NCBI RefSeq assembly: GCF_038632915.1
Contig: NZ_CP152050.1
Span: 1,085,001 to 1,149,000, forward strand
From: Paenisporosarcina sp. FSL H8-0542
GTDB lineage: Bacteria; Bacillota; Bacilli; Bacillales_A; Planococcaceae
Direction of reading: 5' to 3'
DNA: 64,000 nt
Positions 2,466 to 40,588 of this stretch are shown here, one piece after another. The translations under genes and the position numbers were made by a program. Each line of letters begins with the position of its first letter. Within the stretch, counting starts at the first letter, position 1. Below the pieces are notes generated by a model that was not told where the DNA came from, searched no databases, and saw only the letters and a program-made list of their open reading frames with translations.

Positions 2466-2530
2466 AAAATGAACTTGAATGGTTTTCAATGACCCGTTTA
2501 TCCAGTTTTGAGTGAACAAACACTCAAATA

Positions 2531-2647
<117 letters not shown>

Positions 2648-2657
2648 GATTTATTCC

Positions 2658-2733
2658 GGAGGATTAGCTCAGCTGGGAGAGCATCTGCCTTACAAGCAGA
2701 GGGTCGGCGGTTCGAGCCCGTCATCCTCCACCA
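2658..2733 (+). tRNA. tRNA-Val(UAC), copy 1
   Basis: 76 nt cloverleaf with acceptor GGAGGAT/ATCCTCC, anticodon TAC and encoded CCA. First tRNA of a trnB-type operon, starting ten bases after 5S. Confidence 0.98.
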
Positions 2734-2752
2734 TTTTTCTTTTTAACACCGT

Positions 2753-2828
<76 letters not shown>

Positions 2829-2834
2829 TTGTTA

Positions 2835-2910
2835 GAGCCATTAGCTCAGTTGGTAGAGCATCTGACTTTTAATCAGAGGGTCGTAGGTTCGAATCCTACA
2901 TGGCTCACCA
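2835..2910 (+). tRNA. tRNA-Lys(UUU), copy 1
   Basis: 76 nt, acceptor GAGCCAT/ATGGCTC, anticodon TTT, CCA encoded. Confidence 0.98.
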
Positions 2911-2925
2911 TTTTTATACTAAGAT

Positions 2926-3010
2926 GCGGGTGTGGCGGAACTGGCAGACGCACTAGACTTAGGATCTAGCGCCGCAAGGCGTGGGGGTTCGACTCCCTTC
3001 ACCCGCACCA
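2926..3010 (+). tRNA. tRNA-Leu(UAG), copy 1
   Basis: 85 nt class II tRNA with a long variable arm, anticodon TAG, CCA encoded. Confidence 0.98.
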
Positions 3011-3029
3011 TTTTCACAATTTTATACGA

Positions 3030-3104
3030 GCGGAAGTAGTTCAGTGGTAGAACACCACCTTGCCAAGGTGGGGGTCGCGAGTTCGAACCTCGTCTTCCGC
3101 TCCA
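3030..3104 (+). tRNA. tRNA-Gly(GCC), copy 1
   Basis: 75 nt, acceptor GCGGAAG/CTTCCGC, anticodon GCC, discriminator T as usual for Gram-positive tRNA-Gly, CCA encoded. Confidence 0.98.
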
Positions 3105-3117
3105 TATCTTCTTAAAT

Positions 3118-3206
3118 GCCGGGGTGGCGGAACTGGCAGACGCACAGGACTTAAAATCCTGCGGTAGGTGACTACCGTACCGGTTCGATTCCGGTCCTCG
3201 GCACCA
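3118..3206 (+). tRNA. tRNA-Leu(UAA), copy 1
   Basis: 89 nt class II tRNA, anticodon TAA, long variable arm, CCA encoded. Confidence 0.98.
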
Positions 3207-3227
3207 GTTTTTAAAATAGTATAATAT

Positions 3228-3304
<77 letters not shown>

Positions 3305-3316
3305 TAATTTTTGACT

Positions 3317-3393
3317 CGGGAAGTAGCTCAGCTTGGTAGAGCACTTGGTTTGGGACCAAGGGGTCGCAGGTTCGAATCCTGTCTTCCCGACCA
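3317..3393 (+). tRNA. tRNA-Pro(UGG), copy 1
   Basis: 77 nt, acceptor CGGGAAG/CTTCCCG, anticodon TGG, CCA encoded. Confidence 0.98.
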
Positions 3394-3413
3394 GTTTATT
3401 TTATCCCTTTTAC

Positions 3414-3489
3414 GGGGCCTTAGCTCAGCTGGGAGAGCGCCTGCCTTGCACGCAGGAGGTCAGCGGTTCGATCCCGCTAGGCTCCACCA
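3414..3489 (+). tRNA. tRNA-Ala(UGC), copy 1
   Basis: 76 nt, anticodon TGC, acceptor GGGGCCT/AGGCTCC with one G-T pair, CCA encoded. Confidence 0.98.
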
Positions 3490-3507
3490 ACATTTTATAA
3501 AGATCCT

Positions 3508-3581
3508 GGCGGCGTAGCTCAGCTGGCTAGAGCGTACGGTTCATACCCGTGAGGTCGGGGGTTCGATCCCCTCTGCCGCCA
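3508..3581 (+). tRNA. tRNA-Met(CAU), elongator, copy 1
   Basis: 74 nt, acceptor GGCGGCG, anticodon CAT. The discriminator A is followed by a T run, so CCA is not encoded and must be added by CCA-adding enzyme. Matches the elongator Met position of trnB. Confidence 0.95.
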
Positions 3582-3588
3582 TTTTTTA

Positions 3589-3665
3589 GGACCTTTAGCT
3601 CAGTTGGTTAGAGCAGACGGCTCATAACCGTCCGGTCGCAGGTTCGAGTCCTGCAAGGTCCACCA
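3589..3665 (+). tRNA. tRNA-Ile2(CAU), lysidine type, copy 1
   Basis: 77 nt with anticodon CAT. The body (GGACCTT acceptor) and its place after elongator Met match the TilS-modified minor tRNA-Ile of trnB, so it should read AUA and not AUG. Confidence 0.9.
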
Positions 3666-3677
3666 CTTATATACTGC

Positions 3678-3770
3678 GGAGGTATACCCAAGTCCGGCTG
3701 AAGGGATCGGTCTTGAAAACCGACAGGGGAGTCAAATCCCGCGGGGGTTCGAATCCCTCTACCTCCTCCA
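3678..3770 (+). tRNA. tRNA-Ser(UGA), copy 1
   Basis: 93 nt class II tRNA, anticodon TGA, acceptor GGAGGTA/TACCTCC. The discriminator base before CCA is T rather than the G usual for bacterial tRNA-Ser. The second copy has the same T. Confidence 0.96.
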
Positions 3771-3888
3771 TTTTTACTAAGTGTGTGGTGTAAGATCATC
3801 AAACATATAAACATACATATACTCGCGCTAAAGAAATCGTGATATTACTAGAAGCGTTGAGTCATAGTGTTTATAACAATAATATTAT

Positions 3889-3966
<78 letters not shown>

Positions 3967-3968
3967 AT

Positions 3969-4044
3969 GGTCCCGTGGTGTAGCGGTTAACATGCCTGCC
4001 TGTCACGCAGGAGATCGCGGGTTCGATTCCCGTCGGGACCGCCA
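3969..4044 (+). tRNA. tRNA-Asp(GUC), copy 1
   Basis: 76 nt, acceptor GGTCCCG/CGGGACC, anticodon GTC, CCA encoded. Confidence 0.98.
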
Positions 4045-4187
4045 TTTTTTATGAAGTGTTAAGAATTGGAATAAGCAAAGAAGGTCTAGGAAGCAAAATG
4101 AGTAAGTGAAGGAGCGTACTAACGTACGTGACTGAACGAACGAATGAAGCTGACAACGAGATTCGAAGCTTAGTACAATTCGAATGT
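4045..4187 (+). other. Asp-Phe tRNA spacer with conserved motif, copy 1
   Basis: 143-base spacer, far longer than its neighbours. It contains GGAGCGTACTAACGTACGTG and an ATTCGAA...TTCGAAT inverted pair. The copy-2 spacer keeps the first motif but has lost the second pair. Function unknown; possibly a processing or structural element of the tRNA precursor. Confidence 0.5.
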
Positions 4188-4263
4188 GGCTCAGTAGCTC
4201 AGTCGGTAGAGCAAAGGACTGAAAATCCTTGTGTCGGCGGTTCGATTCCGTCCTGAGCCACCA
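4188..4263 (+). tRNA. tRNA-Phe(GAA), copy 1
   Basis: 76 nt, acceptor GGCTCAG/CTGAGCC, anticodon GAA, CCA encoded. No tRNA-His follows, unlike B. subtilis trnB. Confidence 0.98.
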
Positions 4264-4267
4264 TATT

Positions 4268-4341
4268 GCGGGTGTAGTTTAGTGGTAAAACCTCAGCCTT
4301 CCAAGCTGATGATGAGAGTTCGATTCTCTTCACCCGCTCCA
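4268..4341 (+). tRNA. tRNA-Gly(UCC), copy 1
   Basis: 74 nt, anticodon TCC. T-stem GAGAG/CTCTT; copy 2 has GAGGG/CCCTT, a compensated base-pair change. Confidence 0.98.
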
Positions 4342-4350
4342 ATTTTTTGT

Positions 4351-4427
<77 letters not shown>

Positions 4428-4428
4428 T

Positions 4429-4503
4429 TCCGAAGTAGCTCAGTGGTAGAGCAATCGACTGTTAATCGATTGGTCGTAGGTTCGAGTCCTACCTTCGGAG
4501 CCA
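4429..4503 (+). tRNA. tRNA-Asn(GUU), copy 1
   Basis: 75 nt, acceptor TCCGAAG/CTTCGGA, anticodon GTT, CCA encoded. One base after tRNA-Ile. Confidence 0.98.
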
Positions 4504-4512
4504 ATTATTTCT

Positions 4513-4603
4513 GGGGAAGTACTCAAGTGGCTGAAGAGGCGCCCCTGCTAAGGGTGTAGGTCGGGCAACCGGCGCGAGGGTTCAAATCCCTCCTTCTCCG
4601 CCA
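4513..4603 (+). tRNA. tRNA-Ser(GCU), copy 1
   Basis: 91 nt class II tRNA, anticodon GCT, discriminator G, CCA encoded. Confidence 0.98.
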
Positions 4604-4610
4604 GATGTAA

Positions 4611-4682
4611 GGCCCCTTGGTCAAGCGGTTAAGACACCGCCCTTTCACGGCGGTAACACGGGTTCGAATCCCGTAGGGGTCA
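4611..4682 (+). tRNA. tRNA-Glu(UUC), copy 1
   Basis: 72 nt without encoded CCA, anticodon TTC, acceptor GGCCCCT/AGGGGTC. Last tRNA of the operon, just before the terminator. Confidence 0.97.
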
Positions 4683-4692
4683 TTTAAAAAGA

Positions 4693-4722
4693 TGCGCTAT
4701 CTTCGGGATAGCGTGTTTTTTT
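4693..4722 (+). terminator. Intrinsic terminator of tRNA operon copy 1
   Basis: Hairpin CGCTATC-TTCG-GGATAGCG followed by a T run, directly after tRNA-Glu. Confidence 0.9.
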
Positions 4723-4785: not shown

Positions 4786-4812
4786 CAAACAACCGCAATT
4801 GCGGTTGTTTTT
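4786..4812. terminator. Shortened copy of the menA terminator
   Basis: Perfect palindrome AACAACCGCAATTGCGGTTG with flanking A and T runs. Compared with the hairpin at 7527-7564 it has lost 13 bases between direct GCAATTGC repeats, so it has no proper loop. Confidence 0.6.
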
Positions 4813-4816
4813 CATT

Positions 4817-5140
4817 CTATATTATGTAGCCGATCAATAAACCTATGCCGAGTAAGAATCCGAATAGTGTATTTGTTAATGCTGTATCTTTCATAGCCGG
4901 CATTACTTCCAGTGGGTGTTCTTTTGTTTTGAAAACTTGGATGTCATGCACTGGTTTCTTTACGCTTAAGATCACAAATAGTGCCCAAGGCGTAACAAGG
5001 TTTAGAACAACTAATATTAAAATCCAAATGTATGAAATTACGAACAGTGCTAACAAGACATTAACTGCTCGTTTGCGACCGATTAAGATGGCCATCGTTT
5101 TTCGACCACTTTCTTTATCACCTACTAAATCCCGAGTATT
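4817..5140 (-). pseudogene. menA 3' fragment (duplication remnant)
   Basis: C-terminal third of the MenA prenyltransferase, about 107 codons corresponding to the part after RDLVGDK in the intact gene at 7569-8480. It is cut off at the duplication join, where the reading frame continues a few codons into 23S-5S spacer. The frame is still open but several residues differ from intact MenA, for example A to E after VGDK and A to D after KKPVH. It has no start context and lacks the aspartate-rich active-site region, so it should be non-functional. Confidence 0.9.
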
Positions 5141-5185
5141 AATGGTTTTCAATGACCCGTTTATTCAGTTTTGAGTGAACAAAAA

Positions 5186-5239
5186 TGTTTTTTTAAAAAA
5201 ATAAAAAACACTTGTAAATTTCGTCAGACTTGTTATAAT
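5186..5239 (+). promoter_or_regulatory. Sigma-A promoter with UP-like A/T tracts before 5S copy 2
   Basis: A -35 TTGTAA at 5212-5217, a 16-base spacer and a perfect -10 TATAAT at 5234-5239. It is preceded by T and A runs (5187-5208) that resemble an rrn UP element. The sequence is absent from the spacer before 5S copy 1. It should start a transcript about 20-25 bases before 5S copy 2, making the second cluster independent of the upstream rrn promoters. Confidence 0.8.
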
Positions 5240-5267
5240 AAATCTTGTCTTAAAAAAAGAATACCCA

Positions 5268-5384
<117 letters not shown>

Positions 5385-5394
5385 GATTTATTCC

Positions 5395-5470
5395 GGAGGA
5401 TTAGCTCAGCTGGGAGAGCATCTGCCTTACAAGCAGAGGGTCGGCGGTTCGAGCCCGTCATCCTCCACCA
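5395..5470 (+). tRNA. tRNA-Val(UAC), copy 2
   Basis: Same as the gene at 2658; anticodon TAC, CCA encoded. Confidence 0.98.
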
Positions 5471-5487
5471 TTTTTTTTTAACACCGT

Positions 5488-5563
<76 letters not shown>

Positions 5564-5569
5564 TTGTTA

Positions 5570-5645
5570 GAGCCATTAGCTCAGTTGGTAGAGCATCTGA
5601 CTTTTAATCAGAGGGTCGTAGGTTCGAATCCTACATGGCTCACCA
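5570..5645 (+). tRNA. tRNA-Lys(UUU), copy 2
   Basis: Same as the gene at 2835; anticodon TTT. Confidence 0.98.
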
Positions 5646-5660
5646 TTTTTATACTAAGTT

Positions 5661-5745
5661 GCGGGTGTGGCGGAACTGGCAGACGCACTAGACTTAGGAT
5701 CTAGCGCCGCAAGGCGTGGGGGTTCGACTCCCTTCACCCGCACCA
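5661..5745 (+). tRNA. tRNA-Leu(UAG), copy 2
   Basis: Same as the gene at 2926; anticodon TAG, class II. Confidence 0.98.
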
Positions 5746-5764
5746 TTCTTACAATATTATACGA

Positions 5765-5839
5765 GCGGAAGTAGTTCAGTGGTAGAACACCACCTTGCCA
5801 AGGTGGGGGTCGCGAGTTCGAACCTCGTCTTCCGCTCCA
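5765..5839 (+). tRNA. tRNA-Gly(GCC), copy 2
   Basis: Same as the gene at 3030; anticodon GCC. Confidence 0.98.
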
Positions 5840-5852
5840 TATCTTCTTGAAT

Positions 5853-5941
5853 GCCGGGGTGGCGGAACTGGCAGACGCACAGGACTTAAAATCCTGCGGT
5901 AGGTGACTACCGTACCGGTTCGATTCCGGTCCTCGGCACCA
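5853..5941 (+). tRNA. tRNA-Leu(UAA), copy 2
   Basis: Same as the gene at 3118; anticodon TAA, class II. Confidence 0.98.
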
Positions 5942-5962
5942 GTTTTTAAAATAGTATAATAT

Positions 5963-6039
<77 letters not shown>

Positions 6040-6051
6040 TAATTTTTGACT

Positions 6052-6128
6052 CGGGAAGTAGCTCAGCTTGGTAGAGCACTTGGTTTGGGACCAAGGGGTC
6101 GCAGGTTCGAATCCTGTCTTCCCGACCA
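6052..6128 (+). tRNA. tRNA-Pro(UGG), copy 2
   Basis: Same as the gene at 3317; anticodon TGG. Confidence 0.98.
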
Positions 6129-6148
6129 GTTTATTTTATCCCTTTTAC

Positions 6149-6224
6149 GGGGCCTTAGCTCAGCTGGGAGAGCGCCTGCCTTGCACGCAGGAGGTCAGCG
6201 GTTCGATCCCGCTAGGCTCCACCA
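6149..6224 (+). tRNA. tRNA-Ala(UGC), copy 2
   Basis: Same as the gene at 3414; anticodon TGC. Confidence 0.98.
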
Positions 6225-6242
6225 ACATTTTATAAAGATCCT

Positions 6243-6316
6243 GGCGGCGTAGCTCAGCTGGCTAGAGCGTACGGTTCATACCCGTGAGGTCGGGGGTTCG
6301 ATCCCCTCTGCCGCCA
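6243..6316 (+). tRNA. tRNA-Met(CAU), elongator, copy 2
   Basis: Same as the gene at 3508; CCA again not encoded. Confidence 0.95.
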
Positions 6317-6323
6317 TTTTTTA

Positions 6324-6400
6324 GGACCTTTAGCTCAGTTGGTTAGAGCAGACGGCTCATAACCGTCCGGTCGCAGGTTCGAGTCCTGCAAGGTCCACCA
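6324..6400 (+). tRNA. tRNA-Ile2(CAU), lysidine type, copy 2
   Basis: Same as the gene at 3589; predicted TilS substrate. Confidence 0.9.
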
Positions 6401-6412
6401 CTTATATACTGC

Positions 6413-6505
6413 GGAGGTATACCCAAGTCCGGCTGAAGGGATCGGTCTTGAAAACCGACAGGGGAGTCAAATCCCGCGGGGGTTCGAATCCCTCTACCTC
6501 CTCCA
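6413..6505 (+). tRNA. tRNA-Ser(UGA), copy 2
   Basis: Same as the gene at 3678, including the unusual T discriminator. Confidence 0.96.
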
Positions 6506-6623
6506 TTTTTACTAAGTGTGTGGTGTAAGATCATCAAACATATAAACATACATATACTCGCGCTAAAGAAATCGTGATATTACTAGAAGCGTTGAGTCAT
6601 AGTGTTTATAACAATAATATTAT

Positions 6624-6701
<78 letters not shown>

Positions 6702-6703
6702 AT

Positions 6704-6779
6704 GGTCCCGTGGTGTAGCGGTTAACATGCCTGCCTGTCACGCAGGAGATCGCGGGTTCGATTCCCGTCGGGACCGCCA
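6704..6779 (+). tRNA. tRNA-Asp(GUC), copy 2
   Basis: Same as the gene at 3969; anticodon GTC. The long spacer after it (6780-6926) has diverged from copy 1 but keeps GGAGCGTACTAACGTACGTG. Confidence 0.98.
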
Positions 6780-6926
6780 TTTTTATTAAGTAATTCTTTA
6801 AGAATTTGAGATAAGCAAAGAAGGTCGAGGAAGCAATTGAGTAAAGGAAGGAGCGTACTAACGTACGTGACTGACTGAACGAAAGAAGCTGACAAAGAGA
6901 TTCAAAGCTTAGCACAAATTCAATGT

Positions 6927-7002
6927 GGCTCAGTAGCTCAGTCGGTAGAGCAAAGGACTGAAAATCCTTGTGTCGGCGGTTCGATTCCGTCCTGAGCCAC
7001 CA
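6927..7002 (+). tRNA. tRNA-Phe(GAA), copy 2
   Basis: Same as the gene at 4188; anticodon GAA. Confidence 0.98.
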
Positions 7003-7009
7003 TTATTAT

Positions 7010-7083
7010 GCGGGTGTAGTTTAGTGGTAAAACCTCAGCCTTCCAAGCTGATGATGAGGGTTCGATTCCCTTCACCCGCTCCA
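7010..7083 (+). tRNA. tRNA-Gly(UCC), copy 2
   Basis: As the gene at 4268, but the T-stem pair A-T (4317/4327) is G-C (7059/7069). Confidence 0.98.
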
Positions 7084-7089
7084 ATTTGT

Positions 7090-7166
<77 letters not shown>

Positions 7167-7167
7167 T

Positions 7168-7242
7168 TCCGAAGTAGCTCAGTGGTAGAGCAATCGACTG
7201 TTAATCGATTGGTCGTAGGTTCGAGTCCTACCTTCGGAGCCA
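7168..7242 (+). tRNA. tRNA-Asn(GUU), copy 2
   Basis: Same as the gene at 4429; anticodon GTT. Confidence 0.98.
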
Positions 7243-7251
7243 ATTATTTCT

Positions 7252-7342
7252 GGGGAAGTACTCAAGTGGCTGAAGAGGCGCCCCTGCTAAGGGTGTAGGT
7301 CGGGCAACCGGCGCGAGGGTTCAAATCCCTCCTTCTCCGCCA
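7252..7342 (+). tRNA. tRNA-Ser(GCU), copy 2
   Basis: Same as the gene at 4513; anticodon GCT, class II. Confidence 0.98.
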
Positions 7343-7349
7343 GACGTAA

Positions 7350-7421
7350 GGCCCCTTGGTCAAGCGGTTAAGACACCGCCCTTTCACGGCGGTAACACGG
7401 GTTCGAATCCCGTAGGGGTCA
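7350..7421 (+). tRNA. tRNA-Glu(UUC), copy 2
   Basis: Same as the gene at 4611; CCA not encoded. Confidence 0.97.
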
Positions 7422-7431
7422 TTTAAAAAGA

Positions 7432-7461
7432 TGCGCTATCTTCGGGATAGCGTGTTTTTTT
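7432..7461 (+). terminator. Intrinsic terminator of tRNA operon copy 2
   Basis: Hairpin CGCTATC-TTCG-GGATAGCG followed by a T run, identical to the copy-1 terminator. Confidence 0.9.
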
Positions 7462-7526
7462 ATGGAGAAATGTCGAATTGTAGCGAAATGCGACAGACGA
7501 AATTCATACAAGTATTTTTATAAACA

Positions 7527-7564
7527 AACAACCGCAATTGCTGAATGCAATTGCGGTTGTTTTT
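7527..7564. terminator. menA terminator (bidirectional)
   Basis: Stem AACAACCGCAATTG with loop CTGAATG and its exact complement, flanked by A and T runs on either side. It serves menA on the minus strand. Confidence 0.85.
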
Positions 7565-7568
7565 CATT

Positions 7569-8480
7569 CTATAATAAGTAGCCGATCAATAAACCTATAC
7601 CGAGTAAGAATCCGAATAGTGTGTTTGTTAATGCTGTATCTTTCATAGCCGGCATTACTTCCAGTGGGTGTTCTTTTGTTTTGAAAACTTGGATGGCATG
7701 CACTGGTTTCTTTGCGCTTAAGATCACAAGTAGTACCCAAGGCGTTACAAGGTTTAGAATAACTAATATTAAAATCCAAATGTATGAAATTACGAACAGT
7801 GCTAACAAGACATTAACTGCTCGTTTTCGACCGATTAAGATGGCCATGGTTTTTCGACCACTTGCTTTATCACCTACTAAATCCCGAATATTATTGGAGA
7901 GCATAATTGCTGCAACAAGTAACATACTGGGTATAGACAATAATAGAGCAAGGGTCGTTATTTCACCTGTTTGGATATAAAATGCGATGAGAACAATGAG
8001 CATTCCCATAAATACACCTGAAAATATTTCTCCAAAAGGTGTGTACGCAATCGGGTAGGGACCGCCTGTATAGAAATAGCCGATCGCCATTGACACAGCA
8101 CCAACGACTGCCAGCAACCAAGTGGTTTCAATACATATGTATATCCCTAAGATAATTGAAACTGCATAAAGCAGTAACGCGAGCTGCATAACTGTTTTTG
8201 GTTGAACGCCATTTCTGACGATGGCTCCACCAATTCCCACAGACTTCTCATTATCTAAACCTCTTGTGAAATCATAATACTCATTAAACATATTAGTTGC
8301 TGCTTGGATGAGCATACTTGCAACTAGCATTGCTAAGAATAAAGGCCAGTGTATATCTGTATAAGAAATTGCAATCATTGTACCTAGAAACACCGGAACA
8401 AATGATGCAGTTAACGTGTGAGGCCGTGTTAATTGCCACCAAATACGCCAGCCACTATCAGCTTTTAACTCGTGTGACAT
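7569..8480 (-). CDS. menA: 1,4-dihydroxy-2-naphthoate polyprenyltransferase
   Basis: Integral membrane UbiA-family prenyltransferase that attaches the polyprenyl tail to 1,4-dihydroxy-2-naphthoate to give demethylmenaquinone. 303 residues from the chosen start. The N-terminal WWQLTRPHTLTASFVP and the aspartate motif NEYYDFTRGLDN are typical, as is the second motif NNIRDLVGDKASGRKT. Many hydrophobic segments. I chose the ATG at 8480 (MSHELKADSG) because it aligns with known MenA starts. The longer frame to 8528 adds a charged 16-residue extension with no family support. Divergent from the other men genes across a 170-base gap. The 3' third was duplicated to 4817-5140. Confidence 0.95.
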   Translation of the reverse strand: MSHELKADSGWRIWWQLTRPHTLTASFVPVFLGTMIAISYTDIHWPLFLAMLVASMLIQAATNMFNEYYDFTRGLDNEKSVGIGGAIVRNGVQPKTVMQLALLLYAVSIILGIYICIETTWLLAVVGAVSMAIGYFYTGGPYPIAYTPFGEIFSGVFMGMLIVLIAFYIQTGEITTLALLLSIPSMLLVAAIMLSNNIRDLVGDKASGRKTMAILIGRKRAVNVLLALFVISYIWILILVILNLVTPWVLLVILSAKKPVHAIQVFKTKEHPLEVMPAMKDTALTNTLFGFLLGIGLLIGYLL

Positions 8481-8654
8481 ATAGTTTCCGCTCCTTCTTC
8501 TTTTTTCACCTCTCTCATTGTACTTCATCCACTTAATTCTGTGTAGATTGTTTGCTTAACGGGTGCTGAATTGTCAATAAAGAGGTATGATAGAAGGTAG
8601 GATATTAAAGGGTCCTCATATGTTTATGAAGTCCTAATTACGGAGGGAAGCTGG

Positions 8655-23087: not shown

Positions 23088-23211
23088 CTCTTATCCCGAG
23101 CTGGTGGAGGGGTCAGGCCCTATGAAACCCGGCAACCTGCAGTTATGAACCAAGTAGTAATTGGCAAAGGTGCTGAACCTGAAGCAAGGTGTATTCCTTG
23201 GATGATAAGAG
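23088..23211 (+). ncRNA. SAM-I riboswitch (S box) of metK
   Basis: P1 CTCTTATC (23088-23095) pairs with GATAAGAG (23204-23211). The conserved cores GAGCTGGTGGAGGGG, CCTATGAAACCCGGCAACC and AAGGTGCTGAACCTG are all present. SAM binding should favour the downstream terminator and switch off metK. Confidence 0.97.
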
Positions 23212-40109: not shown

Positions 40110-40320
40110 CAATAGTGTAAGACTGTGAAAAGGATCAGTAAATAATGTTGTGTTTTGTAGAGAGCCGACGGTTGGTGCAAGTCGGTATCACAAATTATTG
40201 AACTCGCCTTGGAGTCTGCAGTGGTGAAGTAGTAGTAACCGGTGCCGTTTTCCGCGTTAAGGAAACAAGTTGAGCAATATTTGTTGCTAATTTGGGTGGT
40301 ACCGCGGGAGTATGCGTATA
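40110..40320 (+). ncRNA. T-box leader of leuS
   Basis: Stem I elements AGAGAGCCGACGGTTGGTGC and GTCGG, specifier region GAACTCGCC with CTC (Leu codon), and the T-box core TGGGTGGTACCGCG at about 40303. Uncharged tRNA-Leu(GAG) or a wobble-reading isoacceptor should stabilise the antiterminator. The leader boundaries are approximate. Confidence 0.93.
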
Positions 40321-40367
40321 ACTCTCGTCCCTTAGTCTTTTTTGACTAATGGACGAGAGTTTTTTTT
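40321..40367 (+). terminator. T-box controlled terminator
   Basis: ACTCTCGTCCCTTAGTC pairs with GACTAATGGACGAGAGT, followed by seven T. Confidence 0.93.
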
Positions 40368-40419: not shown

Positions 40420-40588
40420 GCAAAACAGCGAAGACTCCTTTGGGAAAGCGAGACAGTCGAGACCCCCCAGAAGCGAATATAGGAACGAAGGCTAGGAACG
40501 CCACCTCGTGTGGCAACGCCTTCGTGACCAACATCCTGTTGGCCTGAGGAGGCTCGACACTCGCCCAAGGAAAGCGTAGCTGTTTTGC
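40420..40588 (+). repeat. Structured interspersed repeat, element C, in the leuS leader
   Basis: 169 bases between the T-box terminator and the leuS SD. Outer stem GCAAAACAGC/GCTGTTTTGC, then CCTTTGGG/CCCAAGG, GTCGAG/CTCGAC, with AGACCCCCCAG and GAGGAGGCT as in elements A and B. The centre holds two more hairpins, ACGAAGGC...GCCTTCGT (with GCCAC/GTGGC inside) and CCAACA-TCC-TGTTGG. It should be part of the leuS mRNA. Confidence 0.8.

Follow-up and report, generated by a model that had tools for sequence, protein, structure and literature searches.

The second of two tandem 5S-tRNA clusters in this genome is preceded by a promoter-like site (5186-5249) that, on comparison with orthologous loci, is a putative internal promoter ancestral to the 23S-5S spacer of a tRNA-rich, rrnB-type rRNA operon. 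A sequence-only reading of the locus had taken the second cluster (copy 2) to have gained this promoter. That view was not borne out: the site, ancestral in the family, arrived as part of a duplicated 23S-5S spacer, and it is the first cluster (copy 1) that lost it. We consider it very probable that a promoter already resident in the ancestral spacer was duplicated, that copy 2 thereby became autonomous and that conversion removed the promoter from copy 1; the history is read from comparison of loci, and from it we infer promoter activity and a division of inputs between the copies.

The window, the whole 64,000-nucleotide stretch of DNA analysed, covers positions 1,085,001-1,149,000 of a single-contig 3.63-Mb genome whose nearest named relatives are Paenisporosarcina. 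It opens within a 23S gene, followed by 5S, 20 tRNA genes, a terminator and an antisense 3′ fragment of menA, and then by a second 5S gene, 20 tRNA genes in identical order, the same terminator and intact menA. The individual features are as follows.

2468-2531, plus strand: 23S-5S spacer of copy 1, 64 nt and promoterless, resembling the 64-67-nt promoterless spacers of the genome's other rrn operons
2532-2647, plus strand: 5S rRNA of copy 1 (Rfam, 101.6 bits), with the helix-I alleles of promoterless operons by allele comparison
2658-4682, plus strand: 20 tRNA genes of copy 1, Val to Glu (ARAGORN)
4689-4719, plus strand: intrinsic terminator of copy 1, a stem-loop (-14.9 kcal/mol, z -4.8) followed by a T run
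4787-4810, no strand assigned: second hairpin, lying after the tRNA genes and before the menA fragment, shorter than in copy 2
4817 to about 5141, minus strand: duplicated, truncated 3′ fragment of menA, differing from intact menA at 14 of 324 aligned bases
5138-5146, no strand assigned: duplication junction joining menA to the 23S-5S spacer, with about 1 nt of microhomology (junction compared with both parents)
5143-5185, plus strand: start of the 23S-5S spacer within the duplicated unit (about 98% identity to the spacer start of other rrn operons)
5186-5211, plus strand: A/T-rich UP-like tracts, from sequence, the A-tract being conserved in 39 spacers
5212-5217, plus strand: -35 hexamer TTGTAA (within CTTGTAA), from sequence and conservation
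5231-5239, plus strand: extended -10, TGtTATAAT (TG at 5231-5232, TATAAT at 5234-5239), from sequence and conservation
5247, plus strand: predicted +1 G in the conserved CTTGTC, 8 nt past the -10, from conservation
5269-5384, plus strand: 5S rRNA of copy 2 (101.1 bits), the sole 5S gene of the genome without 23S upstream
5395-7421, plus strand: 20 tRNA genes of copy 2, all called intact (ARAGORN)
7428-7458, plus strand: intrinsic terminator of copy 2 (-14.9 kcal/mol)
7569-8528, minus strand: intact menA, a 319-aa ORF whose orthologues adjoin the same operon in relatives

The proposal that copy 2 is a 5S gene with 20 tRNA genes and neither 16S nor 23S was confirmed by the menA fragment and terminator upstream and by the count of ten 5S genes against nine 23S 3′ ends in the genome; nine of the 5S genes have such an end just upstream, and the exception is that of copy 2. 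The terminator and the truncated antisense menA that had been described upstream of copy 2 are both real, and the unit ends in a terminator of its own. As judged from their positions and predicted folding, the upstream terminator and the antisense fragment are expected to limit readthrough into copy 2; readthrough from copy 1 is possible. The tRNA order matches that of Bacillus subtilis rrnB minus His.

Several further elements were observed along the window. The hairpin before menA lies at 4787-4810 in copy 1 versus 7526-7562 in copy 2; copy 1 is short of 13 bases of the loop and upper stem, and the folding energies are -14.3 and -25.3 kcal/mol, respectively. A spacer element of about 108 bp lies between tRNA-Asp and tRNA-Phe (4073-4180, with GAAGGAGCGTACTnnnGTACGTGACTGA as its core) and has relatives at 6813-6917 and in the operons at 820 kb and 240 kb. 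Its four genome matches are all in stable-RNA operons and no Rfam family matched it. Other genera show similar sequence in their 23S-5S spacers (L170, L178 and L181). A SAM riboswitch (23088-23211), a T-box leader (40116-40335) and a Bacillaceae-1 RNA (40476-40542) all exceed their Rfam gathering scores.

The origin of copy 2 can be read directly at its junction, where menA runs to ...GAGTATTA and is followed by spacer ATGGTTTTCAATGACC, with about one base common to both. This arrangement is that of an illegitimate tandem duplication, which spans about 2.7 kb and is predicted to extend from inside the spacer to inside menA. Because the duplication began inside the spacer, 16S and 23S would have been left out of copy 2, which would have received the promoter, 5S, 20 tRNA genes and terminator. 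The duplication was not found in relatives of other species having a complete 23S-5S-menA locus. Divergence between the copies amounts to 14 of 324 positions for the menA fragment against intact menA and 5 of 1,121 across the stretch from tRNA-Val to tRNA-Ser(TGA).

Copy 1 shows the marks of a later replacement. Its 64-nt spacer and its 5S alleles on both sides of helix I are those of promoterless rrn operons, and at the three positions inside 5S where the two copies differ, copy 2 matches the single-copy P. quisquiliarum operon every time. From these alleles, copy 1 most likely lost its promoter after the duplication through gene conversion, a promoterless rrn operon having overwritten its 23S-spacer-5S stretch. 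We favour conversion over simple deletion because a deletion would not alter the 5S. A second conversion tract in copy 1 spans 3848-4264 and is 99.3% identical to the 820-kb operon, compared with 88% for copy 2 there.

The promoterless spacer could instead be an assembly error, the promoter being present in both copies, and the switch at the end of the conversion tract does coincide with an rrn repeat boundary, where assemblies go wrong. The genome, however, is a single contig, and the copy 1 5S carries a base (A2638) absent from the genome's nine other 5S genes, which makes this explanation quite unlikely. In the same-species strain HGH0030, assembly gaps fall on the critical stretches. There, two tRNA blocks adjoin menA with scaffold gaps between them (L069, 10894-18157), and the 3.8-kb gap is longer by about one 2.7-kb unit than two copies require; this strain may have three tandem units.

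Conversion in copy 1 would account for a promoter seen before only one of the two 5S genes. Each element previously named there is present, namely TTGTAA-16-TATAAT at 5212-5239 and A/T tracts at 5186-5211, and the -10 is an extended one. The extra bases of copy 2 relative to copy 1, earlier put at about 74, come to a net of about 72 nt just 5′ of the 5S; the full spacer measures 64 nt in copy 1, whereas that of the P. quisquiliarum single-copy operon, to which copy 2 is 98% identical, measures 137 nt. By consensus alone, 9 kb contained 12 promoter-like sites against 9.6 ± 3.2 expected, which is not above chance. Because some ten such sites are expected per 9 kb on this basis, the case for the promoter rests on comparison. 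Alignment of 39 distinct spacer promoters, whose rows were selected for a TATAAT-like -10 and TGTC/T and for none of the other conserved elements, reveals conservation of an A-tract, CTTGnAA, TTGn-TATAAT and AAAnCTTGTC, and the copy 2 core retains every strongly conserved position. It is this conservation, rather than the match to consensus, that raises the putative promoter above chance.

The -35 and -10 elements at 5212-5239 have a spacing suitable for a housekeeping (SigA-type) sigma factor, and this arrangement is conserved. The same promoter was also sought in front of other 5S genes: its exact core occurs twice in the 3.63-Mb genome and not once in a reversed control, and both matches sit just upstream of the 5S of a tRNA-rich cluster (copy 2 and the 820-kb operon). 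A likeness to 16S-operon (rrn P1/P2-type) promoters was not found in comparison with a single unmasked 16S leader (L035), which has TTGACT and TTGACA cores followed by AAAGTTGC and no CTTGnAA ... CTTGTC. Origin as a copy of a 16S-type rrn promoter was ruled out by this different core. Elsewhere, a promoter of the same type as that of copy 2 (TATTGTAA ... TGGTATAATAAATCTTGTC) precedes a lone tRNA-Asp gene downstream of an rrn operon (L031, 8302-8353).

Copy 2 would then be transcribed by the housekeeping RNA polymerase from a predicted start near G5247. Were the promoter silent, copy 2 would be a decaying duplicate transcribed by readthrough alone, and unused duplicates can presumably persist for some time. 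Such decay is hard to reconcile with a 5S of 101.1 bits, 20 intact tRNA genes and a promoter core that keeps all strongly conserved positions, and the terminator precedes the promoter; we regard a silent promoter as highly unlikely.

The ancestry of the promoter is apparent from its setting in relatives. Within copy 2, the promoter block occupies the remainder of the 23S-5S spacer after 5143-5185. The same block is found between 23S and 5S in the single-copy Paenisporosarcina operons of P. quisquiliarum (98% identity) and of two further genomes (G001 and G002), all with the same 20 tRNAs and with menA next to the cluster; in P. quisquiliarum, 23S lies directly upstream and menA downstream. In another genome (G005), a promoter-5S-menA operon lies at the contig start. 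Across four genus groups (Psychrobacillus, Planococcus/Planomicrobium, Sporosarcina and Paenisporosarcina), the spacer promoter is present in each named menA-linked operon that has a complete spacer (17 of 17), and the second tRNA-rich operon of this genome, located at 820 kb, is arranged as 23S-promoter-5S-16 tRNAs. The putative promoter is therefore ancestral to the locus, lying between 23S and 5S in orthologous single-copy operons, with the 23S absent in copy 2.

A new promoter acquired by copy 2 after the duplication, through insertion or capture, would explain why neither copy 1 nor seven other rrn spacers contain the extra block. Yet relatives that lack the duplication have the same block at the orthologous locus, between 23S and 5S, and the bases preceding it in copy 2 are the 23S-5S spacer itself; we give such a gain very little credence, and insertion is ruled out by the single-copy orthologues already bearing the promoter. 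Copying of the copy 2 spacer from the 820-kb operon, after both copies had become promoterless, is similarly implausible: the promoter there is similar and operons of this genome exchange tracts, but copy 2 shares 98% identity with the P. quisquiliarum orthologue of the spacer, against 84% with the 820-kb operon, and has the 5S alleles of the menA-linked locus.

Units resembling the duplicated one occur in other genomes. P. indica (L151) has a unit of its own promoter, 5S, 13 tRNAs and a terminator of the copy 1 type, with no 23S, beside a gene that, from reading its sequence, we take to be GMP-reductase-like. Other Planococcaceae (L193, L194 and L199) have 5S with 20 or 21 tRNAs, no 23S and a promoter-like site, and one more (L200) has a 5S unit without 23S, of ten or more tRNAs, whose promoter looks like that of 16S operons. 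L208, L210 and L219, from a second family of the class, carry 5S-Val-Thr-Lys units that lack 23S. All of these share with copy 2 a 5S gene leading into Val-Thr-... tRNAs, a promoter-like site and the absence of 23S; outside Paenisporosarcina, their promoter sequences are different and their origins probably separate. In a survey of 12 complete genomes, 4 of 6 apparent orphan 5S genes were retained, of which two, in G012 and at 2.52 Mb in G010, stand at the start of a full tRNA cluster; the other two, both in G010, do not. The apparent orphans of G055 and G093 were discarded as the product of masked sequence upstream, and that of G028, which adjoins an assembly N, was left out of the count. In G010 we also observed a 63-nt 23S tail (L196, 4318-4380) close upstream of tRNA-Val, -Thr, -Lys and -Gly (3931-4274), with no 5S detected between; this rearranged cluster adjoins a larger one that also starts with a 23S tail.

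Two inputs of one ancestral operon, the rrn promoters and the internal promoter, thus appear from the arrangement of the locus to be split between two copies, and we infer that copy 1 would now rely on the former and copy 2 on the latter. Regulatory subfunctionalisation, with the rrn promoters left solely to copy 1 and the internal promoter solely to copy 2, making one 5S and 20-tRNA set ribosome-coupled and the other independently controlled, is a possibility we put forward tentatively, with the balance somewhat against it. Independence of position does not in itself put copy 2 out of step with ribosomes, and decoupling of 5S and tRNAs from ribosomes was already possible in the ancestral operon. 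The rRNA promoters of B. subtilis all start with GTP and track its level (PMC7824091), a shared control with which the conserved G5247, as the likely +1, would be consistent; copy 2 may therefore well rise and fall together with rRNA.

The apparent gain of a promoter becomes a loss, copy 2 having kept what copy 1 gave up. A duplication that starts inside the 23S-5S spacer can yield a working operon because the spacer promoter is already in place, and the locus shows the ease with which a 5S-tRNA unit becomes independent. The near-identical pair of clusters, with and without an internal promoter, offers a natural test of separate control over tRNA and ribosome supply. Although our literature search found no paper describing this exact arrangement, it is an instructive instance of an ordinary kind, internal promoters of rRNA-tRNA operons having been known since 1988. 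The idea that 5S and tRNAs are made out of step with ribosomes has a precedent in Escherichia coli, where the riRNA internal rrn promoter sustains the making of spacer tRNA while rRNA synthesis is repressed; unlike the promoter here, it sits inside 16S and serves the 16S-23S spacer tRNA rather than 5S and a 3′ cluster (PMC5179076). The title of one study reports an internal promoter of the B. subtilis rrnB tRNA cluster (Vold et al. 1988, J Biol Chem 263:14480) and that of another a minor 5S rRNA gene within a B. subtilis operon (Vold et al. 1988, J Biol Chem 263:14485; cited in PMC9142559 and PMC6582537). At the level of these titles, rrnB likewise has a large tRNA cluster behind its rRNA genes and a promoter within the operon, whereas the promoter of copy 2 stands at the head of a unit lacking both 16S and 23S. 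The minor-5S operon similarly places an additional 5S gene in an rRNA-tRNA operon context, and compared with that operon as its title describes it, the copy 2 unit arose by tandem duplication beside menA.
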